A stretch of DNA of 64,000 bases, taken from contig NZ_CP032407.1 in the NCBI RefSeq assembly GCF_016806065.1, forward strand, positions 62,001 through 126,000, written 5' to 3'. Shown in pieces: positions 1,159 to 56,204 of this stretch. The notes under the pieces are model-generated. The model saw nothing but the letters and a program-made list of their open reading frames with translations, ran no database searches and had not been told where the DNA came from. The translations under genes were made by a program, and so were the position numbers. Position 1 is the stretch's first letter. Each line of letters starts with the position of its first letter. Source of the DNA: Rhizobium rosettiformans. Lineage in GTDB: Bacteria; Pseudomonadota; Alphaproteobacteria; Rhizobiales; Rhizobiaceae.

Positions 1159-2292
1159 TCAAATCACTCCCCACGCCCGAAACCTCCCCCTGCCCGTCAT
1201 CTCGCGAAGACCGAGCTCCTGCACGATCCGCCGCGCGCCCTGAGGCGTCACCTCAAGTGTCTTCGCCACCATGCCGGCCGAGATCAACGGCCGCGACATG
1301 ACGAGCTCCACGAGCTCCGGCAGCCTCGATGACGTCCGGCGTCCCTCAAGTTTGCGCATCATCATCTGCCGCGCCAGCACCAGGCGATCATGCTCCTTCA
1401 GCCCGGTCTCGGCGGCAATCACCAACGCCCTTGAAATCGCCAGCAACCGCGTCTCGCGATCACGATGCCGGCGCCGATCGACGGGAATAGCCTTGAGCCC
1501 GACATTGATCGCTGCGAGATGGGTGCCGGTGGTGACGCCACCCTCGCGCAGGACCGAGGCGGCCAGGAGCCGACCGAGCCAGGGCGCATGCTGGAGCACG
1601 GCGATCTCATTCCAGGCATCGAGCGCCACGATGGCCTGCAGGACAGGCGGCAGATCCTGGGCGCGCGCCAGTACAGCCCGCCACTCCTCCAGCCGCTCGT
1701 CCTCATCCCAGTCGAGATCGTAGACGAAGGGATCCTTGTCCGGAGCGTTTTTGGCGCGCCCCGGCTTCTTCGCCTCGTCGATCACGGCCCCGGATCGGGC
1801 GAGTACTGCATCGATCGCTGCAAGCGCATCACCCAAACCATCATTGTCAAGATTTTCGGCCTCCCCTACCCCAGCCCCAGTGCCACCCACCTCAACATTG
1901 CCATCAGACACCCCCTCCCCGTCTCCTACTGATGATGCCGCGGGCCACGCCCGCCCGCGCAGCGAGGCGAGGCCGGGGCTTGAGAGCGCCCAACCAGCTG
2001 GATGGGCGGCGATGCGACGTCGGGTTTTCAGTATGTCGCGGGCGATGGTGAGTTCGTGGGTGGGAGCACGGATGTCGCGAAGCGCATCATGCAGGACGAG
2101 GTCTTCGAGATGGACGAGTTCACCGTCGACCCAGAGCGAGGCATGCGCCTCAAGGAAATGCGAGCGCTCAAGGAAGCCTTCACCGACGGGAGAACGGGCG
2201 ATGCGCTCGTCGAGACGCGCAAGCGCGACCGCTGCCTCGGAAGTGGGCCGCAGCAAGCTCTGGATGGGCAATTTCGCGAGATCGTAAGACAT
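1159..2292 (-). CDS. RHE_PE00001-type protein (DUF1612 with C-terminal helix-turn-helix)
   Basis: This 377-residue protein matches the layout of the DUF1612/RHE_PE00001 family, which is common on rhizobial plasmids. The N-terminal third carries a conserved stretch resembling the entry of Fic-type N domains (a Leu-Pro start, LDERIARSP, then [13 protein letters not shown]). A low-complexity Gly/Glu/Asp linker follows at about residues 120-180. The C-terminal half is the DUF1612 part, ending in a winged helix-turn-helix ([21 protein letters not shown], about 345-365). The function is unknown in the family; the terminal HTH suggests DNA binding and regulation. The gene stands alone, with about 210 bases to the toxin gene upstream and 265 to the nuclease gene downstream. 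Family membership is fairly sure, the role is not. Confidence 0.82.
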
Positions 2293-2505
2293 TGAAATTA
2301 TGGTAAATGATTCGTTAAGCGAAAGCTATATGCGCATTACGGTTCTGTACTTTCCATAACGTGCCCGCGATGGCTGACCCCCGATAAGTAACCCTTATCG
2401 AAAGTGATTGATTTGACGGCGTTCGGCGCCTAAAGTCGTGGCAAATCACGGCGAAAACCACAGCTGGACGCGCAGAACTAGAGGGCTAACAACAGGATGA
2501 AGAGC

Positions 2506-2937
2506 TCAGTCGCTACGAATGGTCGCTTTGTGCCGTTGGCTTCTGGCAAGCTCGACAAACCGGCGCTTCACCTCTTCGAAGAGTGCTGGAGGCAGTGGCC
2601 CGTGATATCCGCTCTCGCTGTCAACAGGGCGAACGTCAGGCCCCGGCCAGACGAAGCGGTTGCTTTCAGTCAGTACGATCCACGACCGTTCGTCGTCGAG
2701 ACCGAGGCGGCGCTTGGTAGCCGGCGGTATTTCGATTGCGTCGCTGGGATCGGACGGCGGGGAATGGGTGATCGGCAGGACACGAACCGCAGGTGTCCCA
2801 TCTTCGAGCAAAGAAACAAACGCCAGCACAAGAGCAGGACGATCCTTGTCCCCCTCCTCTCGTCCTTCCAGATGCTGCCAGTGCCAGAGATAGGAATAAC
2901 GGAAGACCCAGCCGACCTTGGGTTCAGTCGGCAGCAT
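2506..2937 (-). CDS. PemK/MazF-like toxin of a type II toxin-antitoxin module
   Basis: The 143-residue product begins with the GWVFRYSYLWHW segment and continues with KDRPALVLAF and VRVLPITHSPP, the beta-barrel pattern of PemK/MazF-like growth inhibitors. These usually cleave mRNA when the antitoxin is lost. Its start overlaps the 3' end of the antitoxin gene by 14 bases, so the two are translationally coupled in antitoxin-toxin order. This subgroup with a Phd/YefM partner is common in alphaproteobacterial plasmids. The module may stabilise the accessory region. RNase activity is inferred from the family and not shown by the sequence. Confidence 0.8.
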   Translation of the reverse strand: MLPTEPKVGWVFRYSYLWHWQHLEGREEGDKDRPALVLAFVSLLEDGTPAVRVLPITHSPPSDPSDAIEIPPATKRRLGLDDERSWIVLTESNRFVWPGPDVRPVDSESGYHGPLPPALFEEVKRRFVELARSQRHKATIRSD

Positions 2938-3202
2938 TCTTGTCCATCAGCAGTTCGGAATTGAGATGATCCAGGCCTGGCTCCATTGTCGAAGCCTCGA
3001 TCGCGGCAAGCTCGTCGTCACTGATCGCAGCCGTCAGATTGACCTTCCGATCGCGCTTGGCCAGCCGGAGATAATCTTCATAGGCCAAGAGCACTGTGCG
3101 CGGCCGGCCATTCTTGGTGATGATGACCGGCTCTCGCACGGCCGCATCCTGGTAGGCGCCGAAATTCTTCGAAACCGCAGCTGCTGTCACAATCGATGTC
3201 AT
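2924..3202 (-). CDS. Phd/YefM-family antitoxin
   Basis: This 92-residue protein opens with MTSIVTAAAVSKNFGAYQDAA and VIITKNGRPRTVLLAYEDYLRL, the classic Phd/YefM N-terminal fold that binds the operator. The C-terminal half (about 55-92) is acidic and would wrap the toxin. The start at 3202 is supported by AAGGGG about eight bases upstream on the leftward strand. It is the first gene of a two-gene operon with the PemK/MazF-like toxin, and by family precedent it represses its own promoter, helped by the toxin. It lies back to back with the integrase gene, whose start is 78 bases away. Confidence 0.85.
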   Translation of the reverse strand: MTSIVTAAAVSKNFGAYQDAAVREPVIITKNGRPRTVLLAYEDYLRLAKRDRKVNLTAAISDDELAAIEASTMEPGLDHLNSELLMDKNAAD

Positions 3203-3245
3203 GGCAGATCCCCTTTGTTACGGGATATACGGGGTTTCCGGAACT
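3203..3245 (-). promoter_or_regulatory. Probable promoter/operator of the toxin-antitoxin operon
   Basis: The short gap before the antitoxin start has a direct repeat ACGGG-ATAT-ACGGG (3220-3233) directly upstream of the ribosome-binding site AAGGGG. Phd-type antitoxins normally bind short repeats in this position. The repeat is seen; its use as an operator is inference. Confidence 0.3.
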
Positions 3246-3279
3246 TTTGCAAACGCTCCAAGGAATCTGGAAGCACAAG

Positions 3280-4443
3280 ATGACAAGGAAAGCTCCAAAC
3301 GCCCCTTCCAGCAGCGACACACTCGCGCGCCGCGTGGAAGAACTCGATACTATCGCGTCCGTCTTGCCGATGGAGCGGCGTGACGAACTCGCCGAGCTGC
3401 TGACGGATCAGGATGTCGAGACACTCCGTCATCTCGTCAACGAGGGCATGGGCACAAACACGCTGCGCGCACTCACCTCCGATCTGGCCTACTTGCAGGC
3501 CTGGTCACTCGCAGCCACTGGACGCTCTCTTCCTTGGCCTACTCCTGAAGCGATGCTGCTGAAGTTCGTCGCTCATCATCTTTGGGATGCGGAAAAGCGC
3601 CTGGCGGATCCGGAACATGGAATGCCGGCAGAAGTCGAGGACAAGCTGCGGATCCAGGGATTTCTACGTACTCTCGGGCCGCATGCGCCTGATACCGTAC
3701 GCCGACGGCTTGCGACCTGGTCGACGCTGACCAAATGGCGCGGGCTTCAGGGGGCTTTCGGCTCGCCCGCCCTCCGGTCCGCCATCAGACTTGCTATCCG
3801 AGCAACGCCGCGACCGAGGAGGCGAAAGAGCGCGAAGGCGGTCACCGGAGACATACTTGCAAAGCTCCTCGCGACCTGTGCCACCGGCAGTCTGCGTGAC
3901 TTGAGAGATAGGGCCATTCTGATGGTAGCATTTGCTTCTGGGGGCCGACGTCGCAGCGAGATCGCGGGCCTCCGGAAAGAACAGTTACAGCAGGAGGATC
4001 CTATCGAGGTCGATAGCGGCCCTCCCCTGCCCTCTCTTTCCATCCATCTGGGCCGCACCAAGACCAGCGGTGCCGACAACGACGAATTTGTTTATCTCAC
4101 CGGCCGCCCTGTCAACACTCTGAACGCCTGGCTCAACGCAGCGAAGATCGACAAGGGTAGCGTCTTCCGGGCGATCGATCGCTGGGGCAATGTTTCGCGC
4201 CGGCCCTTGGATCCGAAGGCCATCAATGACATTCTAAAGCACCGGGCGGAACTGGCCGGGCTCGATCCGACGGAGTTTTCCGCCCATGGCCTACGCTCTG
4301 GTTATCTGACCGAAGCAGCGAATCGCGGCATTCCCCTGCCTGAGGCCATGGAGCAGTCGCGTCACCGATCCGTGCAGCAGGCTGCGGAGTACTATAACCA
4401 CGCACAGAGACGCAGCGGCCGTGCATCCCGCCTTCTAAGCTAA
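3280..4443 (+). CDS. Tyrosine recombinase (phage-type integrase)
   Basis: With the start at ATG 3280 (weak GGAAGC upstream) the protein has 387 residues, a normal length. An in-frame ATG at 3196 would extend it across the antitoxin promoter and is less likely. The N-terminal half is the core-binding domain. The catalytic domain has all expected residues: Arg in ASGGRRRSEI, Lys in LGRTKTSG, the HGLRSG box (His-x-x-Arg), His in SRHRS and the nucleophile Tyr in AEYYNHAQ. It should cut and rejoin DNA at an attachment site, but I could not identify one. A second, truncated copy lies at 6469-7062, with lrgAB-like genes and an IS6-type element between them. The two copies resemble each other closely at DNA level, so they may recombine. 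Confidence 0.85.
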   Translation: MTRKAPNAPSSSDTLARRVEELDTIASVLPMERRDELAELLTDQDVETLRHLVNEGMGTNTLRALTSDLAYLQAWSLAATGRSLPWPTPEAMLLKFVAHHLWDAEKRLADPEHGMPAEVEDKLRIQGFLRTLGPHAPDTVRRRLATWSTLTKWRGLQGAFGSPALRSAIRLAIRATPRPRRRKSAKAVTGDILAKLLATCATGSLRDLRDRAILMVAFASGGRRRSEIAGLRKEQLQQEDPIEVDSGPPLPSLSIHLGRTKTSGADNDEFVYLTGRPVNTLNAWLNAAKIDKGSVFRAIDRWGNVSRRPLDPKAINDILKHRAELAGLDPTEFSAHGLRSGYLTEAANRGIPLPEAMEQSRHRSVQQAAEYYNHAQRRSGRASRLLS

Positions 4444-9299: not shown

Positions 9300-10391
9300 C
9301 TATGCAGTGCGCATCGAGTTTGCGTCGTGAGAATGCAATAGGGCCTTGGCACCAGCATCGTCAGCGTGGTCCAGCATGATATTCGTGATCTCCGGCAGTG
9401 CCATTTGGAAGGCTTGCACGCAAGCGGGATCGAATTGGCTGCCAGCTCCAGCGATGATGTGAGCGACTGCTCGTTCAACCGGCCAAGCTTCCTTGTAGGG
9501 CCGTACCGTGGTCAAGGCGTCGAAATTGTCAGCGAGCGCCACGATGCGAGCAGATAAGGGAATCTCCTGCGCAGAAAGTTGCCGCGGATACCCCTTTCCA
9601 TCCCACCTTTCATGATGGTTGCCAGCGATTTCTGCTGCCAGCTGCATCAGGCTGGACTGGGATTCTCGCAGGATTTCACAGCCGACAAGAGTGTGCTTCT
9701 GCATCTCCGCATATTCCTGCTTTGTCAAACTGCCCTTTTTCAGCAGGACAGCGTCGGGTATCGCGACTTTGCCGATGTCGTGCATCGGAGCGGCCAGTCG
9801 AATATCGGCACAGTATTCGGGAGGCAATCCGTACTCCCGAGCGATCGCTTCAGAGTAATCTGCCACCCTTCTTGTATGTTTGGCGGTCTCTGAGTCCTTG
9901 TAACTGGCAGCCAACGTGAGGCGATCAATGATCTCTTCTTCACGAGATCGCAGCGCGGCTACTGCTTTGTCGACCTCGGCCCGTAGCCACTCGGCTGTGT
10001 CCGCAAGCTTGTTCTGCGCGATGACAAGCGATAGGAGGTTTCGGACGCGTGCAAGGAATTCCAGCGGATTGATTGGTTTGGTGAGGAAATCAATAGCTCC
10101 CGCCTCTAAGGCTGCCATGCGCACCATCTGGTCGTTGTCAGCCGTAACGAATACCGCTGGCTTGCCGCGGTATTTCTCGAACCGCATTATCTCGTTGAGC
10201 AGTTCAATGCCGTTCAAAGCCGGCATTTGATAATCAATGACAGCCACGTCGTAATCGAGAGATGGCAGCTCATCCAACACGTCGTTCGGCGCAGCATAGG
10301 CTAGCGCGACACAATCCAGCTTTTCGACAAGCTTTGTGAGGAATGTCAGATTGGTCGGATTATCATCGACAAGAAGAATACGCATATTCAC
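9300..10391 (-). CDS. Response regulator with HD-GYP cyclic-di-GMP phosphodiesterase domain
   Basis: The 363-residue protein has a receiver domain (1-120) with acidic pocket DD9-10, phospho-acceptor D53 (VIDYQMP) and the Lys of LTKP. A helical linker leads to an HD-GYP domain: HD at 204-205 (PMHDIGK), GNHHERWDGKGYP at 257-269. The last motif reads GKGYP, with the family's conserved GYP. RpfG-like proteins of this layout hydrolyse cyclic-di-GMP when phosphorylated. The gene is the last of a three-gene leftward operon, eight bases after the hybrid kinase gene, whose Hpt domain is the obvious phosphate donor. Confidence 0.88.
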   Translation of the reverse strand: MNMRILLVDDNPTNLTFLTKLVEKLDCVALAYAAPNDVLDELPSLDYDVAVIDYQMPALNGIELLNEIMRFEKYRGKPAVFVTADNDQMVRMAALEAGAIDFLTKPINPLEFLARVRNLLSLVIAQNKLADTAEWLRAEVDKAVAALRSREEEIIDRLTLAASYKDSETAKHTRRVADYSEAIAREYGLPPEYCADIRLAAPMHDIGKVAIPDAVLLKKGSLTKQEYAEMQKHTLVGCEILRESQSSLMQLAAEIAGNHHERWDGKGYPRQLSAQEIPLSARIVALADNFDALTTVRPYKEAWPVERAVAHIIAGAGSQFDPACVQAFQMALPEITNIMLDHADDAGAKALLHSHDANSMRTA

Positions 10392-10399
10392 ACACTCGG

Positions 10400-12595
10400 T
10401 CAGGCGGCCAAAAGGGATCTATAGGATTCGATGTTCCTTTCTAGATCCGACACGCTTTGGCGGGTCAGGGGCCGAGTTCGAAGTTCCTGACAATTCGCGG
10501 CGAAGGCTTGCAGGCCGATACTGCTGGCAGCACCTTTGAGGGTGTGCAGCAGATGATCCTGCTCTGCATCCTCACCGTCCTCTGAGCAACGCTGCAGTTT
10601 TTGCAGCAAGACGTCGGCATCGTTGAAGAAGCTCGCGACCAATTCCATAAACACCTCCTCGCCGAGGGCGTCGACCATCTCCTTGCGCCTTTCCTCGAAG
10701 CTATCGTCCAATCTGGGAGACACAAAGAGGGGCGCGATAGCGGAGTCGCCTACGGATACATGTGTCTGCAGGCTTTCGCGCAGTTTCGCCAAGGTCACGG
10801 GCTTTGACTGAAATGCATTCATCCCCGCTGTGTCGCAACGTTGGCGATCATCCTCGGAGGCATTTGCTGTCATGGCGACGATCGGCACCTGACCCCGTCG
10901 CCCCTCAAGCTTGCGGATGTGCTGTGTGGCCTCGATGCCGTCCATATTCGGCATCTGCATATCCATAAAGATGAGGTCGAAGTCTTCTGCCCTGGCGAGT
11001 TCCACTGCCTCAAGGCCATCGTTGGCGACAACAACTGACTGCCCAAGATGACGCAAAAAGCCGATAGCCACTTGCTGATTAATCTTGTTGTCCTCCACAA
11101 GGAGCACCCGCCGCCTCTCAAGGATCACATCGCGTCCACCAGACCGCGCGACGGAGATCGGCATTTCGGCTGGCTTGGCCGGCACCTCAAACCAGAACGT
11201 GCTGCCCACCCCCTTGGCGCTTGTAACACCAATACGTCCGCCGAGTTGCTCGATGATTTCCTTGCAAATCGTCAGTCCGAGGCCCGTGCCTCCGTATTTG
11301 CGGCTTATCGTTGCATCTACCTGTGAGAATGGCTTGAACAGCTTGCCGATGCCCTCAGGGTCAATGCCGATGCCAGTGTCGGTCACATCGAACCTGACAT
11401 ACGACCGGCCTTCAACCACCTGCTCGCTCACCTTGAGCGTCACAACACCGTTTTGAGTAAACTTCAAAGCGTTGCTGAGAAGATTAAGCAGGACCTGCCG
11501 TAGTCGAGTGGGATCAGATTCAATCGCAGGGAATGCGGGCGCCTCCGGATAGATCGCGCGCATCAAATTGCCGTTTTCACCAGCGCGATCTTCAAGAATA
11601 TCAACAACAGACCCGACGAGCTCTGCGACCACCAGTGGCCGCATCTCCGTGGTCAGCTTGCCATGGTCGAGCTTGGCATAATCGAGGATCTCGTTGATCA
11701 CCTCGAGCAGAGCCTCGCCGGACTTTTGAATTGTTGTTAGACCTTGGGCAACGGCCCGGTCCGGTCCAGAAAGCTGCAAGAGTTCGGTTGTCCCGAGTAT
11801 CGCGTTCAGCGGCGTCCTGATTTCATGCCCCATAGTCGCCATGAACTGCGACTTGGAACGATTACCAGCTTCGGCGGCAAAATAGGACTTCTGAAGGTCT
11901 TGCGCCATGGCCTCCAAACCAAGACCTGCTGTGCGCACCGACGACAGTTGACGGCGCAGGGAAAAGATCAGGAAACCGACGCAGGCAACGAGAAGGGCGA
12001 CAAGTACTGCCGATCTCAGTTGAAGCGACAGAAGCGCGGCACGAGCGTCAGCCCGGTCTGAGCTCACTGCATTGTTGGCGTAAATCAGGAGGCTTTCAGT
12101 GTTGGTAAGCAACGGCTCAAGAGACGCATCCATTCGCGCCAGATCTTCCGGTCCGAGAGTTCCACTGGCTAAATAGCGATCAAGAATCGGCTCAAGACTG
12201 CGGATTGTGTCAAAGATTTTCGCAATCGCTGGACCTGCATCCTGATCACCGCCGAACTTCCGATCGAACGCCCCCTCCTCCAGGATCTTCATTCGCGAGT
12301 AAAGAATATCATATCCGTTCGATAAACCTTTAAGCGTTTCGGCCGACACCTCCGGTGCCATGGCAGATAGATGAACGGCCTCGTGCAACTTCCGTGTCTC
12401 TCGGTCGAGCTGATAAATTGACCACAATGCGTTTTCACGAATGCCATCCTGTAGGGAGGTATACCTGTGGGCAATCATCAGAAATATTGCGACCAGTCCA
12501 ATCAGCAGCAAGGCTGCAAAGATCTGCAGGGCGACCGTCACCTTGCTGGCCGTGCGAAGAGCCTCAATGCTGACTGGCTGAATGGTCTGCATCAC
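10400..12595 (-). CDS. Hybrid sensor histidine kinase with receiver and Hpt domains
   Basis: In the 731-residue protein a first membrane helix lies at about 20-42. A helical periplasmic region of some 150 residues follows, then a second helix at about 195-215. The HisKA box GHEIRTPLNAILG places the phospho-His at 257. The HATPase has the N box (LLNLLSNALKFTQ), DTGIGID and GGTGLGL. A receiver domain follows (LLVEDNKINQQVA, with FMDMQMPNMDG), and the C-terminal Hpt domain carries HTLKGAASSIG. This is a full phosphorelay in one chain. Its start overlaps the end of the upstream periplasmic protein gene by four bases, and the HD-GYP regulator follows by eight. So the likely order is periplasmic protein to kinase to HD-GYP output. 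Confidence 0.9.
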   Translation of the reverse strand: MMQTIQPVSIEALRTASKVTVALQIFAALLLIGLVAIFLMIAHRYTSLQDGIRENALWSIYQLDRETRKLHEAVHLSAMAPEVSAETLKGLSNGYDILYSRMKILEEGAFDRKFGGDQDAGPAIAKIFDTIRSLEPILDRYLASGTLGPEDLARMDASLEPLLTNTESLLIYANNAVSSDRADARAALLSLQLRSAVLVALLVACVGFLIFSLRRQLSSVRTAGLGLEAMAQDLQKSYFAAEAGNRSKSQFMATMGHEIRTPLNAILGTTELLQLSGPDRAVAQGLTTIQKSGEALLEVINEILDYAKLDHGKLTTEMRPLVVAELVGSVVDILEDRAGENGNLMRAIYPEAPAFPAIESDPTRLRQVLLNLLSNALKFTQNGVVTLKVSEQVVEGRSYVRFDVTDTGIGIDPEGIGKLFKPFSQVDATISRKYGGTGLGLTICKEIIEQLGGRIGVTSAKGVGSTFWFEVPAKPAEMPISVARSGGRDVILERRRVLLVEDNKINQQVAIGFLRHLGQSVVVANDGLEAVELARAEDFDLIFMDMQMPNMDGIEATQHIRKLEGRRGQVPIVAMTANASEDDRQRCDTAGMNAFQSKPVTLAKLRESLQTHVSVGDSAIAPLFVSPRLDDSFEERRKEMVDALGEEVFMELVASFFNDADVLLQKLQRCSEDGEDAEQDHLLHTLKGAASSIGLQAFAANCQELRTRPLTRQSVSDLERNIESYRSLLAA

Positions 12596-13107
12596 TGAGT
12601 GACCTCGATTTCCTTGATCTGCCAGACCGATCGAGAGAAATACTTCTCATTGTAGAGAGAGCTGTCAGTGTCGAATGGATAGATGAGGAAGAGCGGCCCC
12701 TTGTCTCGAATAGACATCAGCTCACCATTCATACGGGTGGCAAGGATTGTGTCGATCGTTGCGGCATCCTCCATTGGAACCACCGCGACGTAGTCGTTGA
12801 GCGCCTTCACATTAAGGGTCGTTCCCTTAGCGCCAGCCGCTTCCAGTACCGTTCGAAGAAAGGGTCCCGAAAACTCGATCTCGCCTTTTGTCCATGGCGT
12901 CTCCATCTTGCCCGAACGACCGGCGAGTGCCTCAAGCATGGCAAGATCAAATTGTGCTGTCTCTCCAGCATTGGGATTGGCGAGGTCCGATCCTTTGATC
13001 GTCAGTATTACTTCGCCCTTGGGTGCATCCAGTGCCATTGTAGGAGCTGCCGCCAGGCTGATAAAAGCGGCGGCGGTGATGAGCAGTTTCAAGGCCATGG
13101 TGTTCAT
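12592..13107 (-). CDS. Secreted molybdopterin-oxidoreductase-fold protein, probable sensor partner
   Basis: The 171-residue product has an N-terminal signal peptide (hydrophobic to residue 24, cut near TMALDAP). Its mature part resembles the oxidoreductase molybdopterin-binding (SUOX-like) fold: VILTIKGSD, FDLAMLEAL, a FSGPFLRTVLEAAGAKG segment and a GPLFLIYPFD strand. There is no cysteine in the mature part, so the Cys that holds molybdenum in true enzymes is absent. Such domains are also found next to sensor kinases. Because the gene overlaps the hybrid kinase by ATGA, I infer that it is a periplasmic ligand-binding partner. It heads the operon kinase to HD-GYP. The fold call is moderate, the role is inference. 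Confidence 0.7.
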   Translation of the reverse strand: MNTMALKLLITAAAFISLAAAPTMALDAPKGEVILTIKGSDLANPNAGETAQFDLAMLEALAGRSGKMETPWTKGEIEFSGPFLRTVLEAAGAKGTTLNVKALNDYVAVVPMEDAATIDTILATRMNGELMSIRDKGPLFLIYPFDTDSSLYNEKYFSRSVWQIKEIEVTQ

Positions 13108-13333: not shown

Positions 13334-14695
13334 TCATTTACCAGTTGGTGGTGCAGGCAGATCTTCATGATCGGCCGATGCGGCAACCAGCTGTGTTCCC
13401 TCGCCCAGTTGCTGGCGGTAGCGAGCGTACCTGTTCTTGCCGGAATTCTTTGCTGCATACATGGCGAAATCGGCGGCGCGAAGAATAGCGTCACTGTCCT
13501 TGCCATCCGATGGATATGCCGAGATGCCAATCGACGCACTTACAGTGACGTCCTGTCTGCCAATGTCGATCGGTCGACATATTTCCGACAGCAACCGGCG
13601 TGCAAAATTGTCAGCGGTATCCGCGCCCTGATGGCGTTCGAGGATCATGGCAAACTCGTCGCCGCCGAGCCGAAAGGCCATCAACGAATCCAGCTTGCTT
13701 ATCCTTCGACCGATTGTCCGAAGGACTGCGTCGCCGGCATGATGACCAAACGTATCATTGACGGCCTTGAAGCCGTCGAGATCGAGTACCATCAAGCTGA
13801 ATGGTTTAACCGCTTGCGTAACATCTGCTCTGCGTCCCAGCTCTGCGTTGAACAGGTATCGATTTCCAAGACCTGTCATCTGGTCGATGTGGGCGGCGTT
13901 CCACAGATCAAGCTGGCGATTATGAGCTTCTGTCACATCTTGGAGGACACCCTGTATCACGGGCTCGCCTTGATGGTTCAGGCTGTACTGCCCAGCGCTT
14001 TTAAAGCGGCGCACCTGTCCAGAGGGATGGCGAAAATCAAACTCCTGCACCATGGGCTCAACACACAGCTCAGGATTCTTCGTGATAGCTTCGATACCGT
14101 GGCGGACATCCGCGGAAAGGGGCTCCAGTGCCATTTCCAATGTCACTGGAGCGCCGTGCGGCACCCCGTAGAGGTCGTACACCCGATCTGACCACAACAG
14201 TCGGCCGGTTCTAACTTCATAAGTCCAGGCACCAACGCCAGACAGCTCTTCAAGCTGTGCGAGCCATGCTGCGCGTCGTTCGGAGTCTTGTCTCAGGGCT
14301 ACGAGTTGCTCTTCAAACGAGCGCCGAGCGGAGGCTCGAAAAAGCGCCACATCGTAAACTCGAGGACCCAGGTGGTTGCGCATCGAGATATTGACCAGAA
14401 CCGGCGATGGCTCGGCATTTCCCTGCACCGTTAGTGCGACCTCGTGGCAGCGGCCTTCAATATGCAGAAGCGGAATGAGAACACTCTCAAGATAGAGCCG
14501 ACTTGCGGTCGTAAACTTCCGGCTAATTCGCTCGCCCATTATCTCGCGTTCGGACGCGCCGGTCAGTCCGCCGAAACAGGCGTTGGCGCGCAGGATACAA
14601 AAGTTGGCGTCAACGACCACCAACGCACACGGGGCATCGTTCCAATCAACCTCGCCATTGTAGGCCTCAGAGATGAGAGTTTGCTGACCCGACAT
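13334..14695 (-). CDS. PAS-PAS-GGDEF diguanylate cyclase paired with RsbQ-like hydrolase
   Basis: I chose the ATG at 14695 (MSGQQTLIS), 28 codons after an upstream ATG, because the hydrolase gene ends at 14667 and the two would overlap by 29 bases. The 453-residue protein starts with a PAS domain (APCALVVVDANFCILRANACF). A coiled segment and a second PAS (about 155-275, VGAWTYEVRTGRLLWSDRV) follow. The GGDEF domain (about 285-440) has TGLGNRYLF, DLDGFKAVNDTFGHHAGD and the intact RLGGDEF. No inhibitory RxxD site is seen five residues before GGDEF. The partner upstream is RsbQ-like. In Bacillus, RsbQ feeds a PAS-phosphatase (RsbP), and here the output appears to be cyclic-di-GMP synthesis. Confidence 0.85.
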   Translation of the reverse strand: MSGQQTLISEAYNGEVDWNDAPCALVVVDANFCILRANACFGGLTGASEREIMGERISRKFTTASRLYLESVLIPLLHIEGRCHEVALTVQGNAEPSPVLVNISMRNHLGPRVYDVALFRASARRSFEEQLVALRQDSERRAAWLAQLEELSGVGAWTYEVRTGRLLWSDRVYDLYGVPHGAPVTLEMALEPLSADVRHGIEAITKNPELCVEPMVQEFDFRHPSGQVRRFKSAGQYSLNHQGEPVIQGVLQDVTEAHNRQLDLWNAAHIDQMTGLGNRYLFNAELGRRADVTQAVKPFSLMVLDLDGFKAVNDTFGHHAGDAVLRTIGRRISKLDSLMAFRLGGDEFAMILERHQGADTADNFARRLLSEICRPIDIGRQDVTVSASIGISAYPSDGKDSDAILRAADFAMYAAKNSGKNRYARYRQQLGEGTQLVAASADHEDLPAPPTGK

Positions 14696-15488
14696 ATCGT
14701 TCGATCTCTTGGATGACCTCGGCCGGATGACTGACGTGTGGGCAATGTCCCGTTGCCTTGAGTTGAACAAAGGTCGCATTCGGCATTTGGTCGGCTACAT
14801 ATTTGCCAACCTCGACCGGAGCGATGACGTCCTCGGCGCACTGCAAGACCAGCGCCGGTGTGTAAGCCTTTGCCAGGTCTGATCGGTTGTCGCTCCAGAA
14901 GGTCAAAGCCGCGAAATGCCTGGCGATCTCAGGGTTGGTTCTGCAGAAACTTTCGCGCAGCGTGTCCGTCAGTTCTGGACGGTCGGAGTTACCCATGATT
15001 GCGGGTGCCATTTGCCCTGCCCAACCGAGATAGTTGGACTGCATGGCGTCGATCAGCCCTTCGATATCCTGTTTCTCGAATCCCCCGCGATAGCGATCAC
15101 CATCGTTGAGGTAACAAGCGGATGGCCCAATAAGAACTAGCTGACTGAACAGTTCAGGCCGTTTGGCTGCTGCCAGGACCCCGATCATCGAACTGACGGA
15201 ATGACCAACGAAAGCTGCCGGTTCAGTGCAACAATGTTCAATTACTTCAATGCAATCATCTGCATAGTCTGTGAGGGCCTGATAGTGCTTGTACGAGAAA
15301 TGGCTAGCATCTGAGTTGCCGAAACCCATGAGATCAAACAGGACGATCTGGTGCTTGTTCTGGAATGCAGGCGCAACATCCTTCCACATCGTCTGATCGC
15401 AACCCAACCCATGAGCGAAGATTATCGGGCTACGAGCCGTACCGAAGGACTTTATCGCATACTTGTAGGTTGGATCTCGCTGTCGCAT
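14667..15488 (-). CDS. RsbQ-like alpha/beta hydrolase (KAI2/D14 relative), signal partner of PAS-GGDEF
   Basis: The 273-residue protein aligns from memory with Bacillus RsbQ along its whole length: FAHGLGCDQTMW, VLFDLMGFGNSD, FVGHSVSSMIGVLAA, RPELFSQLVLIGPSACYLND, GGFEKQDIEGL, NYLGWA, ADQMPNATFVQLKATGHCPHVSHP. The triad is complete: S97 in GHSVS, D220 in CAEDVIAP, H248 in TGHCPH. RsbQ and plant KAI2/D14 receptors share this fold and use a small hydrophobic pocket to bind or cut a signal molecule. The 3' end overlaps the start of the PAS-GGDEF gene, so the two are translated together and likely work as receptor and PAS reader. The signal itself cannot be told from sequence. Confidence 0.9.
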   Translation of the reverse strand: MRQRDPTYKYAIKSFGTARSPIIFAHGLGCDQTMWKDVAPAFQNKHQIVLFDLMGFGNSDASHFSYKHYQALTDYADDCIEVIEHCCTEPAAFVGHSVSSMIGVLAAAKRPELFSQLVLIGPSACYLNDGDRYRGGFEKQDIEGLIDAMQSNYLGWAGQMAPAIMGNSDRPELTDTLRESFCRTNPEIARHFAALTFWSDNRSDLAKAYTPALVLQCAEDVIAPVEVGKYVADQMPNATFVQLKATGHCPHVSHPAEVIQEIERYVGSANSHL

Positions 15489-15551
15489 AGATATCTCGTA
15501 TTTTCACATATCTGAAATTATGGATGTTCATTGTTTAGGAAGAGTAAAGGC

Positions 15552-16649
15552 TCACCCTGAACTCACAATCGGGGATTGACGAACATCATATTCGGAGGCG
15601 CTTTTTGGGGAACCAAACAAGAAACCTTGGCCAACGTCACAGTTCATCTCGCGCAGAACTGACGCCGTCTGTGTATCCTCGATACCTTCAGCGATGACCT
15701 TCAATCCAAGGCTCTTGCAGAGCTGCACCAACGCGATGACGATGGTACGATTTTCCGGGTGTTCTGGTAGGCATTTAATGAATGAACGATCAATCTTTAC
15801 GTAGTCGATGGGATAGTCCCGGAGATGAGACAGGGACGCATACCCAGTGCCGAAATCATCTAGGGCAATCTTACAACCTGCCCTTTTTAGGGCCCGGATG
15901 TTTTCGAGAACGACATCTTCGCCCTCAGCAAGGATTACGGTCTCAGTAATCTCGATCATCAAAGAACCTGGCGCAATGTCGTAGCGATCTAGCTCCGTCA
16001 ATATGTGGTCGGCGTAGGATCGTTCACGAATACAGACCTCAGACACGTTGATGCCGACGACACCATAGTCGAGACCTAGCTCGGTCCACTGCTGCATTTG
16101 CATCAGTGTCTTGGTCAAAATTTGTTCGCTGATTGCCCTGGCACAGTCAGGGTCTGAAAACGCGGGCCAGAACTCCGCGGGCATCACAGTCAAGCCGTCT
16201 GGGTCAACAATCCTTGCCAGGGCCTCAAATCCACACCGGCGCCCAGTGATCAAGTCGATCTCTTCCTGGAAGAAAGGAAAAAGACGGTTGGCCGCGACCG
16301 CATTGAGAACCCTAGCAATTGCAGCCAATCTAAGTGTCAGACCGCTCTCACTTCGCTCTCCAAAAAACTCGTATGTACCTCGAACAGATCTCTTGACTTC
16401 ACGCAGAGCAACATCTGCGGACTTGAGGAGGTCGTTGACGGTCCAGCCTTCTGCCGCAGATGTACAACATCCAATTGAACAGGTGACAGAAAGATTGTGG
16501 CCGCTGAAGCCCGCGGGACGCTTAACGGTCTTAAGGATCCTCTCGCAGAGCCGCGCCAGTCGAAACTGATCGTTGAAGGGAAGAAGAAGCGCGAATTCAT
16601 CTCCGCCCAGCCTGAAGAGCTCGCCCTTGGCAGTCGGGATCTCTTTCAA
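15552..16649 (-). pseudogene. GGDEF-EAL protein lacking the start of its GGDEF domain
   Basis: The frame is open from about 16855 to 15552. Conserved residues begin at about 16760 with QKPSLLLIDIDGFKKINDTFGHEVGD and continue through FRLGGDEFALLLP. No ATG is present in that stretch; TTG 16649 is the nearest plausible start used for the coordinates. The opening part of a GGDEF domain (the LTGLxNR segment) is missing, and the preceding bases belong to the end of the 1491-residue gene at 16772. The EAL half looks complete: GFEALAR, EITETVIL, LDDFGTGYASLSHL, VKIDRSFI and GQGFLFG. The gene may be a relic of a longer protein, cut at its 5' end, or it may still yield a phosphodiesterase from an internal start. 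Confidence 0.6.
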
Positions 16650-16771
16650 TCGATCAGCAACGATCTTTACTAACTGATCGCCGACTTCATGCCCAAAGGT
16701 ATCATTGATTTTTTTGAAGCCATCAATATCGATCAGTAGCAGAGATGGCTTCTGGTATTTCCCAACTTGTG

Positions 16772-19700
16772 CTAAATCGCCTCTGGCTTGTGAATGTGGA
16801 AGCCTTGCGCGTAGTCCACGCCAATGGAAGCGAGTTTTGAGAGTATCTCGGCACTCTCAACGTATTCCGCCACAGTCTTAATACCCAGAACGCGCGCAAC
16901 ATCTACAAAACAACGAACCGCCACATCGTTAAGCGGATCATTCGTCAGGTCACGAATAAACTGTCCATCGATCTTCAGGAAATCAACGGGGAAGCGCTTC
17001 AGATAGCCGAAGGAAGACGCGCCCGCACCAAAGTCGTCGAGCGCGACTCGGACGCCTCTGCTTCGAACCTGATCGATAAATGTCGTAGCATCCGCCAAAT
17101 TGGTAATGGCTGCCGTCTCGGTAATTTCAAAACACAGCCGCCGACACACGGCATATCCAGCTTCGTCCAGGATCTCCATGGCTTGCCTGTGAAAAGACCG
17201 ATCCCCGACAGAATGCCCGGACAGATTGACGCTAATCGTCTCCGTTTCGGTTGCCTCTGGAAGGCGAGCGATCCAATCGATCGCGTGTGTCAGCACCCAC
17301 TGATCCAGACGCGTCGCAAGATTGAAGCGTTCAGCAGACGGCAAAAACGCTGAGGGTGAAATCAAACTTCCGTCCTCATCTTTCATGCGAATCAAAAGCT
17401 CGACATGACGACCAGCCGGCGTCCCGCTAATGGGCCGAATATTCTGTGCGAAAAGCACAAACTGGTCATCGTCAAGCGCCCGCTCGATGCGCGATGCCCA
17501 TCGCATCTCGCCGGAACGGGCAGCTATGGCCTGATCGGTGTTAACCCAGACATGGACCCGGTTCCGACCGCCTTCCTTTGCGGCGTAACAAGCGTTGTCC
17601 GCGGCCTGTAGGATCGAAGCAAGGCTCTGCATCGTTCCATCGATCGGCACAAGTCCTATACTTGTGCCGACTCGAAACCGTTTGTCGTCGTGGACAAAAC
17701 GGAAGTCACGCATTCGGTCACACATCGCCTGTGCGATACGCGTCGCGTTCGCGGCGGGGCAGGCTTCGAGAATAACCCCGAATTCATCTCCTCCCAAGCG
17801 GGCAAGGGTATCGCCCGAACGGATTGTGTCGGCAAGCAACTTGCCAACCTGCTTGAGCAGATCGTCGCCGACAGCGTGGCCGCAGGAGTCATTTACGATC
17901 TTGAACTGATCGAGATCGATATAAAGCAAGACGTTCGAAGAGCTGTCAAAGCGGGACTTTTCAAAAACAGTTTGCAACCTTCTATCGAATTCGGCCCTGT
18001 TAATCAGTCCAGTCAGCGGATCATGGCTTGCCCGGTAACGCATTTCCCGCGATAGACGCCGTTGTTCACTGACGTCATGAAAAACCAGAACTGCGCCAAG
18101 CACGTCGCCTTCGGAGTTCCTGATCGGTGCTGCTGAATCCTCGATGCTAAATTCCTGACCGTCGCGAGCGATCAGCATCGTATTTTCGTCAAGGCCGACG
18201 ATATCAAGGCTCCGCAGACACGCAGTAATCGGATCTGGCGCGCGTTGGCGGGTTTCCTCATTGATGATATCAAATACCACGCTGCTCGGTTGCCCGCTGG
18301 CTTCGGCCGCCGACCAGCCGGTCATTCGTTCGGCAACCGGGTTCAGCCACTGGACGATACCCAAAGCGTCAGTCGTGATGACGGCGTCACCGATCGAATG
18401 AAGGGTTACGCGCATAAGCTCGTGCTGATCTTCAAGTTCGAGCGCCATTTTTCGTTGAGCCGACACATCCCAGGCTGCGCCTATCAATCGCAATGGTTGA
18501 CCGCACACGTCCGAGACTACCTTCGCCGAGATCCGGATGTAGTGTGTCGAATGGTCAGGCCTGATGATCCGATATTCTTCGTTGAGTGGGCGGTTTTCTC
18601 TGATCGCTAAATGAGCGGCTTGCTCAATTCGCTCATAGTCATCCTGGTGGATATGCCGGCGCCACAGATCAGAAACGCGCTCGCCACTGCGCTCGGGCAA
18701 ACCAAACAAGCGGTACATCCAAGGATCCCATGTCACGACATTCATGACCAGATCATAGTCCCAGATGCCTATGCCGCCGCTATCGGTGGCAATCGACATG
18801 CGCTCCGCAAGGAGCCGCCGCTCCTCCTCCTCCGCCTTTCGCCGAGAAACATCAATATGGGTGCCGATCATCCGGACCGGACTTCCATCATCGTTGCGCG
18901 CAACGACCCTACCGCGATCAAGAATCCACACCCAGCTGCCGTCCTTACGGCGCATGCGAAACTCTTCCTCGAAATACGGGGTCTCGCCCGCAATATGATC
19001 GCGATCGGCAGCTTGTGCCCGTTCCCGATCGTCCGGGTGGACCAGCGCCAGCCAATTGTCGATTGCGTTACCAAACTCTTCCCGCGAGTAACCGAGAAGC
19101 TCACACCATATGTCAGAATAATAAGTTCGACCGGTCCGCAAGTCAGCATCCCAGATACCGATACCCCCGTTCTCGGTTGCAGCAGCCATCTGCTCGTTGA
19201 GCCGTTCCAATCTGGCACGTTGTTCAATACGCTCGGAGATATCTTGAAATGCACCGCTTATACGGACTGGCTTTTCGCCGTCGAATTCAACCGCACCAAC
19301 GGCGCGGACCCAAATTCGCTCCCCACTCGCCTTGATGAAAGGGAGTTCAAGATCCCAGCCTTCGCCGGTGGCCATACCCTTTTCTACCGCATTCTGAATG
19401 ATTGGACGGGCTTCTGGCGCATAATAGGCAATTGCTTCATCCATCGTCGGCCTATAGCCCGGTTCGACGCCATGTATTTGGCAAGTCTCGTCGGACCAGA
19501 TGATATCACCTGTTGCCAGATCGACCTCCCAACCGCCAACGCCCGCGACCTTTCCGGTACGTTCAAGGAAAATGCGGCTTTTGCGAAGTGCATCTTCCTG
19601 AATTTTCCGAAGCGTGATGTCCTGATGCGTACCAAACATCCACTGCGGTTTGCCGTCGGGTGTCCTGGTGATAACTTTGCCGCGATCGTGTACCCAAACC

Positions 19701-21506: not shown

Positions 21507-21660
21507 AAAAGTTTGGGCCCAGACATCGCGACCGAGAAGGCGATCAAGGACATCCGCCGCGCCGCGCACAAGCATCATTCACCAGAGGAGAAAATCCGGA
21601 TCGTCGAGGAAGGCCTGCGTGGCGAAAACAGCATCGCCGCGATCTGCCGCCGTGAGGGAC
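21507..21660 (+). mobile_element. Fragment of an IS3-type orfA
   Basis: About 50 codons in one frame, from [22 protein letters not shown] to [25 protein letters not shown], resemble the helix-turn-helix start of IS3-family OrfA transposase subunits. The frame then runs abruptly into a leftward chemoreceptor fragment at about 21661. No OrfB and no paired inverted repeats are visible, so this is only a scar of an insertion. Confidence 0.6.
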
Positions 21661-21912
21661 CTCGGTCGAGGAATTCTGGATCAGCCCCTTGATCTCCTTA
21701 GCAGCACTGGCCGAACGTTGGGCGAGTTCGCGCACTTCCTGGGCAACGACGGCAAAGCCTTTGCCGGCTTCACCGGCACGCGCTGCCTCAATCCCGGCAT
21801 TCAGCGCTAGGAGATTGGTCTGGAAGGCAATCCCATCAATTACACCGATGATATTGAAGAGCTGCGGCGAACTGTCCTCGACACGGCGCACATCGCTCGC
21901 CTCGCGAGTTCT
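21661..21912 (-). pseudogene. Chemoreceptor fragment (signalling tip only)
   Basis: Read leftward, this piece gives about 83 codons of the most conserved part of a methyl-accepting chemotaxis protein: [60 protein letters not shown]. Both ends are cut, the downstream one by the IS3-type fragment. The nearest relative here is the intact receptor at 22180-23976, which has the same segment in the opposite direction at about 23350-23545. The two therefore form a long imperfect inverted repeat of about 200 bases. Confidence 0.8.
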
Positions 21913-22179
21913 TAAACCGCCATTCAGAAACCTGGTCCTGTCCGGTTTTTAAGGGGCAACTCCAGCGACAATTAGAACCAGTCGGGACGGCATCCGTTCT
22001 GAAGAAGACACCTTATGTAAGCGCATTAACACATACGAAACCAAGTATGGGATATTAATTTCAACAGAAAAAATCGAAAAAACAATAAGATATACGATTA
22101 CCGAGTTTCGCCCTGTTGATCACTTCTCTGTATACTTTTCGCTCACTTCACACACCTCTCGTCATCAAAGGACACAACG

Positions 22180-28117: not shown

Positions 28118-29116
28118 CTACCCACTCGTTGCCATGCTTATCGCTTGTCGGGCGATACTACGGCGCGCCAGTGCAATATCGCGCGGCTTTATGCCAACAA
28201 CGCCAGTTCGTAGTTCCGCCTCAACCAAACGTCGAGCCCTTGGACTAATCGAATTCAGCACACATTCCTTCAGCGCCGGGCTCGCCGCGCGCAGAGCCAT
28301 GGTTAGAGTGTCGCTGGCGATATTATTGAATAGAAGCGCCCGACTATGCTGCGGCATGAGCACGATGTCATCAAAGAGGAAGATCTGCGATCGAACGCGT
28401 TCAGCCGCATTTTTGTTGATCGTATCAAGTGACTGCTGCAGGCTTTCACCGATATGTTTGTCGAGCTTGTTGATCTTGTCAGCGACCTCACACGCCCCTG
28501 CCGAAGAGCGCCGCACATCGATCTTAGCGAAGAGCTGTTCCAGGCGTTTCTCAACAATGAGTGCTGCTTTCGGGGTTACGCTCTTCAGGTTAATCGCGCG
28601 GTTTAGGATGTCTGCCCGGCGAGACTCTGACAATCCCTCTAGAACCGAGGCGCCAAATGATGACGGGAGCATGGAAAGAATATAGGCAGCGGTCTCTGGG
28701 TGTTCGCGAGACAACATCCGCCCGATCATTCTGGGATCAGCGTCTTCAAGTCGATCACACGTAGCGGCCTGATATGCGCGGAACGCCGCGCAGCTTTCGA
28801 GCCGTTCATCGACATCTTCACGCGTTAGACTGTCTTCCAGTATGCTCTCAATGACTTTCGCGCTGTCCATGAGGCCAGCGCCTTGAGTGAAGAGCGCTGA
28901 AAATTCGGTGACAAACTGATCGAGCTCATGTGGCGGAATCGTACGAAGCAGTTCAGCAGACGCTATAATTTTCCGCAACTCGGACTGGGTGAAGTACCTA
29001 AGGAGGCGACCTGCAGTTTCCTTGCCCATGGCCAGCAAAATGGCAGCTGCCTTGCCTGCCTGTGTCAAAGGCTGACTTGTGAGCGAGTGGTCAAAATCAT
29101 CAAACGCGAGCGCCAA
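28118..29116 (-). CDS. fliG: Flagellar motor switch protein FliG (orphan copy)
   Basis: The 332-residue protein fits alphaproteobacterial FliG in length and motifs. The N-terminal domain begins with QAGKAAAILLAMGKETAGRLLRYF. The middle domain has the EHPQ-type loop, here SREHPETAAYILSMLP, and GLSESRRADILNRA. The C-terminal torque domain reads VRSQIFLFDDIVLMPQHSRALLFNNI and ends with LRTGVVGIKPRDIALARRSIARQA. FliG couples the MS ring to stator proteins and to FliM. No other flagellar gene lies within the window, only a decayed gene downstream, so this is an isolated, probably second copy. It may alter motor behaviour or be a leftover of a transferred flagellar locus. Confidence 0.85.
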   Translation of the reverse strand: MALAFDDFDHSLTSQPLTQAGKAAAILLAMGKETAGRLLRYFTQSELRKIIASAELLRTIPPHELDQFVTEFSALFTQGAGLMDSAKVIESILEDSLTREDVDERLESCAAFRAYQAATCDRLEDADPRMIGRMLSREHPETAAYILSMLPSSFGASVLEGLSESRRADILNRAINLKSVTPKAALIVEKRLEQLFAKIDVRRSSAGACEVADKINKLDKHIGESLQQSLDTINKNAAERVRSQIFLFDDIVLMPQHSRALLFNNIASDTLTMALRAASPALKECVLNSISPRARRLVEAELRTGVVGIKPRDIALARRSIARQAISMATSG

Positions 29117-37961: not shown

Positions 37962-38780
37962 ATGCCGTCATTTCTCGAAATTTCTCCCGATAAACTGAAC
38001 CGCCTTATCGGCACGCCCAGCGCCCCGGTGCTCATCGACGTGCGCACTGACGAAGACTTCCAGGCAGATCCGCGACTGATCCCCGGCTCGCTGCGCCGCC
38101 CTTACGATCAGGTCGCTGTCTGGGCAGGGCAGTTCACGACGCAGCCGGTCGTGACCATCTGCCAGAAAGGCAAGAAGCTCAGCCATGGCGTGGCGGCCTA
38201 TCTGCGAACGCAGGGCGCGTCCGCCGAAGTCCTCGAGAACGGCATCGAGGCATGGGTATCCGCAGGCCTCCCTCTGGTCCCCGCCAGTCAGTTGCCCGAA
38301 CGCGACGCGCAAGGGCGAACCGTCTGGGTGACACGATCGCGACCGAAGATCGACCGCATTGCCTGCCCGTGGCTGATCCGGCGCTTCATCGATCCGGGTG
38401 CGGTCTTCCTGTTCGTCGCGCCAGGCGAAGTATCCGCCGTGGCCGATCGCTTCCGCGCAACGCCATTCGATGTCGACGATGTCTTCTGGAGCCACCGGGA
38501 CGAGCTATGCACCTTCGATGTGATGATCGAGGAATTCGGTCTTTCGACGCCACCTCTCCTGCGCCTGGCGACGATCGTCCGCGGCGCCGATACGGCCCGG
38601 CCGGATCTCGCACCCGAGGTGGCGGGCCTGCTCGCCGCATCACTCGGGCTGTCGCGCATGTTCAACGACGACCTTCAACAGCTTGAGGCCGGAATGACGC
38701 TCTACGACGCGTTTTACCGCTGGTGCCGTGATGCGACTGGCGAAACCCATGACTGGCCCGCTGGAAAGAAGGGTGACTGA
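37962..38780 (+). CDS. chrB: Chromate resistance protein ChrB with N-terminal rhodanese domain
   Basis: The 272-residue protein has two parts. Residues 1-110 form a rhodanese-like domain (VLIDVRTDEDFQADPRLIPGSLR, then the Cys loop TICQKGKKLSHG, with Cys in the active position). Residues 125-270 match the ChrB C-terminal domain (RSRPKIDRIACPWLIRRFIDPGAVFLFV, DELCTFDVMIEEFGL, IVRGADTARPDLAPE). ChrB is reported as a chromate-sensing regulator or accessory protein of chrA operons, and the rhodanese fusion is a common variant. The next gene chrA begins one base after the stop, so they are cotranscribed. Confidence 0.9.
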   Translation: MPSFLEISPDKLNRLIGTPSAPVLIDVRTDEDFQADPRLIPGSLRRPYDQVAVWAGQFTTQPVVTICQKGKKLSHGVAAYLRTQGASAEVLENGIEAWVSAGLPLVPASQLPERDAQGRTVWVTRSRPKIDRIACPWLIRRFIDPGAVFLFVAPGEVSAVADRFRATPFDVDDVFWSHRDELCTFDVMIEEFGLSTPPLLRLATIVRGADTARPDLAPEVAGLLAASLGLSRMFNDDLQQLEAGMTLYDAFYRWCRDATGETHDWPAGKKGD

Positions 38781-50648: not shown

Positions 50649-53108
50649 ATGCTGAAAGTCGTCAAGGAAGAGCTTGGGTTTGGGGTGGTCGCCGGCAACG
50701 AGCGGCCTATGTCCGTTCACATCCCCTATATGCGGCATGTGTCTGACACGGTCATCGGGCTCGAGAATGGAACCCTGATCAGCGTCATCAAGCTTGATGG
50801 ACTGTTCTTCCAGACGGAGGACCAGGCCGAATTGAACATGCGTTCTGTTGTGCAGAACACCATGATCCGAGCTCTAGGTTCGAGCCGCTATTCTCTTTGG
50901 TCGACTGTAATCCGTCGTGAGGTCGAGACCGAAATCGGCGGTTCGTTCGATTCCTCCTTCTGCGAGATCCTGAACGACCGCTATATGGACCAACTTCGCA
51001 AGAAGCGGATGTTCACGAACGAAATCTACCTGACGATCGTGCGTTCGGGCATGAAAGGGGCGCTTGGCCTCGGCGACTCGCTGAAGCGGATCTTTGAACG
51101 CTCGAACAAGGAGGCCAGGTCCCAAGCGACCCGTGAAGACGTGACCGACCTCGAAGAGCTGGTTGGGAACATCGTGAAAGAGTTGCACAAGTACGGCGCA
51201 AAGCCGCTTGGCATTACGTATCGCAAGAAATCGGACGATACCGCGAAAAAGGACATCGATGGAGAAGACGCTAAGGGCGATCCGTATTCGGAGCCCTGCG
51301 AGTTCTTCAACACGATCCTGACCTGCGGTGTGCCGCGAAAGATGCGGCTTCCGCGCATGGGAATTCGGAACTACGTCGGCACTTCACGGCTTCACTTTTC
51401 AAAGCGGACTATGCAGGCACAAGCGGCGGTGGAAGAAGATAGCCGCTATGCCGCTCTACTCTCGATCAAAGAATATCCTCCATTCACTGGTCCCGGCATG
51501 CTGGATGGATTGCTCCAGGTGAACCATGAGTTCATCCTGACACAGTCGTTCACGCTGGCTGACAAGCCGATCGCACAAGAACGGATCAGCCGTCTCCAGC
51601 GTCAGATCAAGGCCTCCGACGAAGCGGGTAGCTCTGTCGAGTCCGAGATCGACTATGCGCTCAACAGCCTTCTTAATCAGGAGGCTGTTTTTGGATTTCA
51701 TCACTTCTCGCTGCTGTGCATTTCGCGGGACCTCGACGGATTGAGCCGTTGCGTGTCGGAACTTGGCGCTTGCCTCACCGACATGAACATCAACTGGCTC
51801 CGGGAGGATCTCAATCTTGAAGCGGCGTTCTGGGCGCAGCTGCCGGGAAACCGCTCCTACATCTCCCGCATCGCCATGCTGTCAAGCGCCAACTTCTCCG
51901 GCCTTTCCTCGATGCATAATTTCGCGACTGGACAAGCGGATCGGACCCATTGGGGCCTGCCGATCACCATTCTGGAAACGACCTCACAAACCCCCTACTG
52001 GTTCAACTTCCACCGTCGCGATATCGGGCACTTCACGGTGACTGGTCCGACAGGATCCGGCAAAACCGTAGGTTTGACCTTCCTGCTGGCTCAGGCGATG
52101 CGGGTATCACCCACGCCTCGCGCCGTGTTCTTCGACAAGGACCGGGGGGCTGAGATCTTCGTCAGGGCGATCGGCGGAGCCTACGAGGTTCTGTCTCCAG
52201 GAACACCCACGGGCTTTAACCCGCTGCAACTGGAAAACACCGGCGAGAACCGGGAATTTCTGGTCCGTCTGCTCAAGGCCATGCTGCGCGGCGATCGTCG
52301 CACCGACTTCACGCAAGAGGACGAGGACACGCTGGAAAAGGCAATCGTCCGGATTATGCAGGAGCCGGCAGCTCAGCGGAACCTCCCCAATCTTGCCGGC
52401 CTCTTGATGGGGCGGTCCAAGGCCGATGCCAACGATCTATACTCGCGGCTTCGCCCTTGGATCGAAGGCGAAAAAGCTTGGCTGTTCAACGCGCCCCATG
52501 ACGTCCTGTCCTTCTCGGGTCACAGCGTCTTTGGCTTTGATATGACCAACATCCTCGGAAACGAGGAGCTAAGAACCCCTGCGCTGATGTATCTTTACCA
52601 TCGGCTGGACGAGCTGCTGGACGGTAACCCCGTCATGTTCTTCATGGATGAAGGCTGGCAGCTGCTGATGGATGACACTTTCAGCGCCTTCATCGTCGAC
52701 AAGATGAAGACGATCCGAAAGCTCAACGGCATCGTGGGCTTTGGTACGCAGTCGGCTGCTGACATTACCAAATCCAAAGCGTCGCACACGCTCATTGAGC
52801 AATCGGCGACCAACATCCACTTCCCGAACCCACGGGCTGACGAAGAGAGCTACATCAAGCGCTTCGGCCTGACAGTGAAGGAGTTCAAGTTCATCAAGAA
52901 CACGCCTCCTGAAAAGAGAACCTTCCTGATTAAGCATGGCAACGACTCTGTCATTGCGCGTCTCGATCTGTCGACAATGCCGGATCTCGTGAAGGTGCTT
53001 TCAGGACGCAAGGAGACGATCGAGGAGTGCGCGGCACTTCGCGAGCAGTACGGAGACGAACCCGAAAACTGGTTGGCGAAATTCTGCGGATGGGAGAAGG
53101 CCGAATGA
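50649..53108 (+). CDS. virB4: VirB4-like T4SS ATPase
   Basis: The 819-residue protein is of normal VirB4 length. The N-terminal domain (CagE_TrbE_VirB type) reads [18 protein letters not shown] onward. The C-terminal ATPase has Walker A GPTGSGKT near residue 465 and Walker [13 protein letters not shown] near 661, followed by the [17 protein letters not shown] segment. VirB4 drives pilus biogenesis and substrate passage from the inner-membrane face. It overlaps the next gene by four bases. Confidence 0.94.
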
Positions 53109-54196: not shown

Positions 54197-54210
54197 CAAG
54201 GAGAACGGCC

Positions 54211-55138: not shown

Positions 55139-55142
55139 CCCC

Positions 55143-56171: not shown

Positions 56172-56204
56172 GCAACTGGTGGCGGGAATTAAGGGCTAGG
56201 ATAG

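Follow-up and report, generated by a model that had tools for sequence, protein, structure and literature searches.

The locus analysed here raises the question of whether an RsbQ-type hydrolase gene that overlaps a PAS-PAS-GGDEF gene encodes a two-protein sensor with a cyclic-di-GMP output, and how closely such a sensor would resemble RsbQ-RsbP of Bacillus subtilis. The pair lies in a 64,000-base stretch of Rhizobium rosettiformans DNA (the window) within the 136,910-base contig C3. This contig carries repC, with conjugation genes at 50649-62016. Based on these genes, we infer that C3 is a repABC-type plasmid and may be self-transmissible. We consider it probable (roughly 0.7) that the pair is an RsbQ-PAS bipartite sensing module whose output is a diguanylate cyclase, and in which the hydrolase would bind the first PAS domain (PAS1) and tune cyclic-di-GMP. 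Nadezhdin, Brody and Price (2011; PMC3183031) described 45 RsbQ/RsbP-PAS pairs, and in the accessible part of their paper, to which our citations of it refer, the outputs are phosphatase, histidine kinase or diguanylate cyclase. Thus, the headline of the initial annotation, an RsbQ-type hydrolase coupled to a diguanylate cyclase, is not new: such coupling is already published, and the window's pair is a somewhat divergent further case. The 2011 paper stated that the cue of the module was unknown (PMC3183031), and we found no experiments on a GGDEF-type RsbQ pair in the literature examined. A 2025 eLife paper cites the 2011 work and, in its accessible part, models RsbP and RsbQ together with AlphaFold2 (PMC12143880).

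The hydrolase carries S97 in the motif FVGHSVSSMI, D220 in LQCAEDVIAP and H248 in ATGHCPHV. Its top match in the PDB is B. subtilis RsbQ (1wom; E=1e-86, 294 bits, residues 12-266 of 273), followed by the bacterial hydrolase Olei00960 (3qvm; 1.6e-61) and then by plant D14/KAI2-type chains (9.8e-54 to about 1e-36, among the best 60 of 243 PDB matches). Near-full-length similarity to RsbQ and the Ser-Asp-His triad place it in the RsbQ family, as initially annotated. Judged by aligned residues, the pocket retains the triad and has one altered residue, L28, where other paired relatives carry F or Y. By motif position, L28 corresponds to KAI2 Phe26, which separates two pockets according to the available part of that study (PMC3548789). 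The protein is most likely a cytoplasmic receptor-hydrolase.

The open reading frame of the cyclase is listed from 14779 (481 aa). We chose the ATG at 14695 as the start that fits the PAS domain, and the overlap with the hydrolase gene follows from this choice; with it, the 29-base overlap noted in the initial annotation holds. The intact GGDEF domain of that annotation is confirmed as well. The GGDEF domain was detected at E=1e-40 with its D-x-D-x-FK-x-x-ND and GGDEF motifs intact, and the protein is predicted to be a diguanylate cyclase; a motif check found no RxxD inhibitory site in this domain. The Pfam match to PAS1 is weak (23.0 bits, cut-off 22.6). PAS2 was missed by the Pfam search and is covered by an NCBIfam sensory-box match of 25.7 bits (cut-off 22.9). 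The structure model contains two PAS-like folds and a GGDEF fold. When the 5.1-Mb genome was searched with a ten-row profile of RsbP-type PAS domains that included the one from the window, the cyclase gene scored 9.7e-48 and the next of three matches 2.2e-11, and PAS1 appears closer to RsbQ-linked PAS domains than the other PAS domains of the genome are, by more than chance. The genome has 51 GGDEF matches, 5 of them on C3. A 434-aa relative of the cyclase (P0248, 47% identity) had no GG(D/E)EF motif that our script could find.

Features of the RsbQ-PAS/cyclase locus, its surroundings in the window, and chemoreceptor genes near related pairs
Feature	Position	Strand	Remarks
RsbQ-type alpha/beta hydrolase	14667..15488	-	273 aa; triad S97, D220, H248
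PAS-PAS-GGDEF protein, predicted diguanylate cyclase	13334..14695	-	453 aa; ATG at 14695 (MSGQQ)
Overlap of hydrolase and cyclase genes	14667..14695	-	29 bases
PAS1, RsbP type	14333..14653	-	cyclase residues about 15-121
PAS1 F-alpha helix	14456..14509	-	model helix 63-80; putative contact helix by analogy with RsbP
Linking helix PAS1-PAS2	14240..14332	-	31 residues (122-152); from structure model
PAS2, ordinary sensory-box type	13934..14239	-	residues about 153-254; ends DVTE
GGDEF domain	13430..13894	-	catalytic motifs intact; without RxxD inhibitory site
Gap upstream of hydrolase gene	15489..15551	-	63 bp; DNA common with R. metallidurans starts at 15548
Motility block, chemoreceptors	22180, 32628		
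Motility block, GGDEF proteins	25535, 30706		
Motility block, HD-domain response regulator	9300		
Chemoreceptor genes near clade pairs	L005:8160-9884; L006:8204-9937; L007:1367-3115; L008:2440-4188		

Most of the published class features that we tested are present in the pair, though not every one. The hydrolase gene lies directly upstream and PAS1 is the most N-terminal domain of the cyclase, as expected of the module. RsbP positions were mapped by motif and spacing (position 48 by spacing) and not against the RsbP sequence itself; on this basis L48, F55, E72 and P86, where alanine gave a null or weak response (PMC3183031), are kept in kind as F61, Y68, E85 and P98. The positions of C10, L13, Q53 and C56, where alanine had modest effects in B. 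subtilis (PMC3183031), are C, V, R and L in PAS1. A DIT motif is absent from the end of PAS1, which reads VYDVALFRAS, and the neutral aromatic residue (H/Y) at the Y59 position is absent from the cyclase: in the F-alpha helix, Y68 occupies the position of F55 and V72 that of Y59. In the B. subtilis RsbQP system the PAS domain is sufficient for interaction with RsbQ, F55A is null, and Y59A is null with a disturbed RsbQ interaction, the Y59A protein being present at only 50-60% of the wild-type level (PMC3183031).

We surveyed overlapping samples of 394 genomes from the window's family, 397 from its order and 398 from its phylum, in which RsbQ was found at E<=1e-45 in 30, 24 and 20 genomes, respectively. 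The survey comprises 75 RsbQ loci (phmmer E<1e-40), including 7 from a contig search and leaving out three second matches of the family search; some of the loci are duplicate or near-duplicate DNA (the hydrolases of L006 and L041 are identical, as are those of L008 and L042). An RsbP-type PAS open reading frame occurs at 67 of the 75 loci; because 35 of these neighbours went into the PAS profile, pairing is tested better by the loci added later. In all 66 unfused pairs the hydrolase gene is followed directly downstream, on one strand, by the PAS gene, with the profile match starting between -59 and +44 nt relative to the RsbQ stop; the remaining pair is fused. The initial annotation had made its reading depend on recurrence of the pair in other genomes, and this recurrence is directly observed. 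Four of the eight loci lacking a PAS partner are cut by contig ends (L009, L043, L061, L063). The RsbP-type PAS is also absent at the uncut loci L040 (a partial match), L062 (33% identity), L075 and L078, and these four are a point against the module reading. The distant hydrolase at L062, from another family of the same order, is followed by a GGDEF frame without an RsbP-type PAS match (1414-3647).

The 67 partners comprise 53 kinases, 13 GGDEF proteins and one of unclear output (L060, cut), with the kinase calls at L017, L065 and L074 made by eye from translations and that at L015 from the next open frame. Among the 29 other loci of the family sample, a kinase partner is present at 28 and no partner at L040, so that GGDEF occurs only at the window's locus; R. 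metallidurans, from the contig search, is a second GGDEF case if the sampled family is Rhizobiaceae, as is probable from this nearest named locus.

Natural fusions bring the domains together in one chain. At L077, in the same phylum, hydrolase, PAS and GGDEF form a single 585-aa frame, and this genome also has an unfused pair elsewhere (L073). A search with the L077 protein retrieved six others (P0121-P0126), which match 95-98% of the query and carry Pfam domains for hydrolase and GGDEF; in the two examined, P0121 and P0126, a PAS domain is visible by alignment and not by Pfam. Kinase fusions of the form hydrolase-PAS-HisKA-HATPase also occur (P0129, P0131, P0133, P0137), as do a 527-aa protein with HisKA and without HATPase (P0130) and a 402-aa protein with hydrolase and PAS and without an output (P0127). 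Because such single-chain fusions exist, direct contact between hydrolase and PAS would be favoured. In the model of P0126 the domains are good (mean pLDDT 90.9) and the linker is weak, and the pTM of 0.54 gives nothing firm on the orientation of hydrolase and PAS. Fusions with GGDEF or kinase would be one-piece receptors whose activity could be read as cyclic-di-GMP, which would make a ligand screen possible without the sigma-B pathway.

A quick tree of 73 hydrolases (67 loci and 6 fusions, 268 columns) places the window in a clade of seven rows and five distinct sequences, all with GGDEF (SH-aLRT 100): its own genome, R. metallidurans, Pannonibacter (twice), the BEIJ3 MAG and Rhabdaerophilum (twice). 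An extra EAL domain occurs in L007 and L008. Output type requires two changes on the tree, versus 13.7 in shuffles, with a program warning about long branches coming together at L074 and the L071 group; a single origin of output type stays conceivable from these sequences. Hydrolase position 28 is L or M in 7/7 clade rows versus F or Y in 60/60 other paired loci. The clade is likewise uniform for K9, A11, T33, K36, S65, I146 and A194, where the 60 others have R (57), N (53), N (46), R (49), D (52), L (58) and R (54), and it differs from most others at 254 and 261 as well. At the place of RsbP Y59, V or I stands in 7/7 clade rows, versus H in 55/57 kinase rows and H or Y in 8/8 other GGDEF rows, two of which (L077 and P0121) are closely related. 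The equivalents of F55, P62, E72 and P86 are retained in PAS1 of the clade, and the hydrolase and cyclase frames overlap in 7/7 clade loci with a PAS partner. Other rows without H or Y at 59 share the hydrolase changes partly (L060, L074) or have one difference at most (L047). In four other scanned clade loci, chemoreceptor genes lie within about 6 kb of the pair.

The pair itself is a conserved unit, since the DNA shared with R. metallidurans starts 60 bp before the hydrolase gene and the window's two upstream GGDEF-EAL genes have no counterpart in 12.8 kb of R. metallidurans sequence. The two sequences align over 2317 bp at 88.6% DNA identity, from 15548 to 13235; beyond 13235, a Cache-HWE kinase gene lies within an aligned stretch of 82.8%. 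In R. metallidurans, repB and repC genes precede the pair. One upstream GGDEF-EAL frame, of 434 codons (15552-16856), has its first ATG/GTG/TTG (16649) inside the GGDEF domain, a domain match that starts at profile position 24, and an overlap with the end of a 1491-aa gene; it is perhaps a truncated gene. Downstream of the pair, 9300-13107 encodes on one strand a small molybdopterin-binding-type domain protein, a hybrid kinase and the HD-domain response regulator. The stretch 7362-34514 is rich in motility-type control genes, including a second FliG, the flagellar switch protein (28118-29116), 59% identical to the chromosomal FliG. In 297 genomes of the family, the plasmid FliG shares just 57-59% identity with the matches listed at E<=1e-118, so we see no clear orthologue. 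A chemoreceptor gene fragment at 21544-21948, 78.8% identical over 198 bases to the R. metallidurans chemoreceptor gene downstream of the pair, is a remnant. A ChrB-type gene at 37962-38777 is possibly a chromate-response locus.

How would the pair work? In the best-supported route, the hydrolase would bind directly to PAS1 in a cyclase dimer, with transmission along helices. The two proteins would be produced together from their overlapping genes. A small ligand in the hydrolase pocket would, by occupancy or turnover, alter the PAS1 contact, and this change would be relayed by the helix of residues 122-152, PAS2 and the helix of residues 255-269 to GGDEF activity and thus to cyclic-di-GMP. 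What we infer here is the complex and the direction of its effect, the ligand, and the role of primary sensor for the hydrolase instead of the PAS. The reverse assignment is model 1 of the 2011 paper (PMC3183031), in which the hydrolase makes a product and hands it to the cleft of PAS1, the sensor. The retained triad and the PAS fold of PAS1 in the structure model suit this idea, and it would concern the same module, so its odds overlap with those of the main reading; we find it somewhat unlikely, as the fusions and the strict pairing, compatible as they are with delivery, fit a lasting complex at least equally well. An ordinary metabolic esterase whose gene overlaps that of the cyclase by chance is very improbable given the conserved pairing and the fusions, even though many esterase models match the hydrolase, those shown all far below their own cut-offs.

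The V or I at the Y59 position is a point against the module reading, given that Y59A is null in B. subtilis, if at a reduced protein level, and together with the hydrolase differences of the clade at eight positions it could mean that the contact has been rewired or lost in the window's clade, with PAS1 responding to its hydrolase differently, to another ligand, or not at all. Against this stand the overlapping frames and the retained PAS1 residues, and the rows of one clade are not independent, L060, L074 and L047 showing the position 59 change with a partial set of hydrolase changes or one difference at most; we consider such a loss or rewiring unlikely, and keep to direct binding of PAS1. 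The altered pocket residue and contact helix suggest that the clade, a single one, may answer to another ligand. A bolder proposal, which we regard as doubtful, is that the clade is a distinct subfamily in which the pocket has been remodelled by the change of F/Y28 to L/M, and the contact by that of H/Y59 to V/I along with the hydrolase changes. The plasmid-borne pair would then respond to another ligand and, together with the plasmid's chemoreceptors, cyclases and extra FliG, retune motility in any host that the plasmid enters. The divergent clade is in any case a natural test of which contacts matter.

The plant receptors D14 and KAI2, whose partners are F-box and SMXL proteins, have the hydrolase family in common with the window's protein; no such partners are encoded here. 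The initial annotation had suggested a possible link to plants, which our findings do not support: plasmid RsbQ relatives include nodule isolates, but 11 of 67 records are Streptomyces and 8 of 67 Phaeobacter, one listed row is a deep-sea Salinimonas, and D14/KAI2 chains score below B. subtilis RsbQ against the hydrolase. The pair resembles B. subtilis RsbQ-RsbP in its hydrolase family, its triad and a PAS partner encoded immediately downstream; unlike in that system, the output is GGDEF and not a PPM phosphatase, and a second PAS domain lies between. With the RsbQ-PAS/cyclase module of 2011 (PMC3183031), as far as the accessible part of that paper goes, it shares the hydrolase directly upstream, the N-terminal RsbP-type PAS and the lack of DIT after PAS1; extra PAS domains (in five proteins of that set) and GGDEF output occur there too. 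From that module the window's pair differs in the V at the Y59 position, the hydrolase L28 in place of F/Y, and its location on a plasmid.
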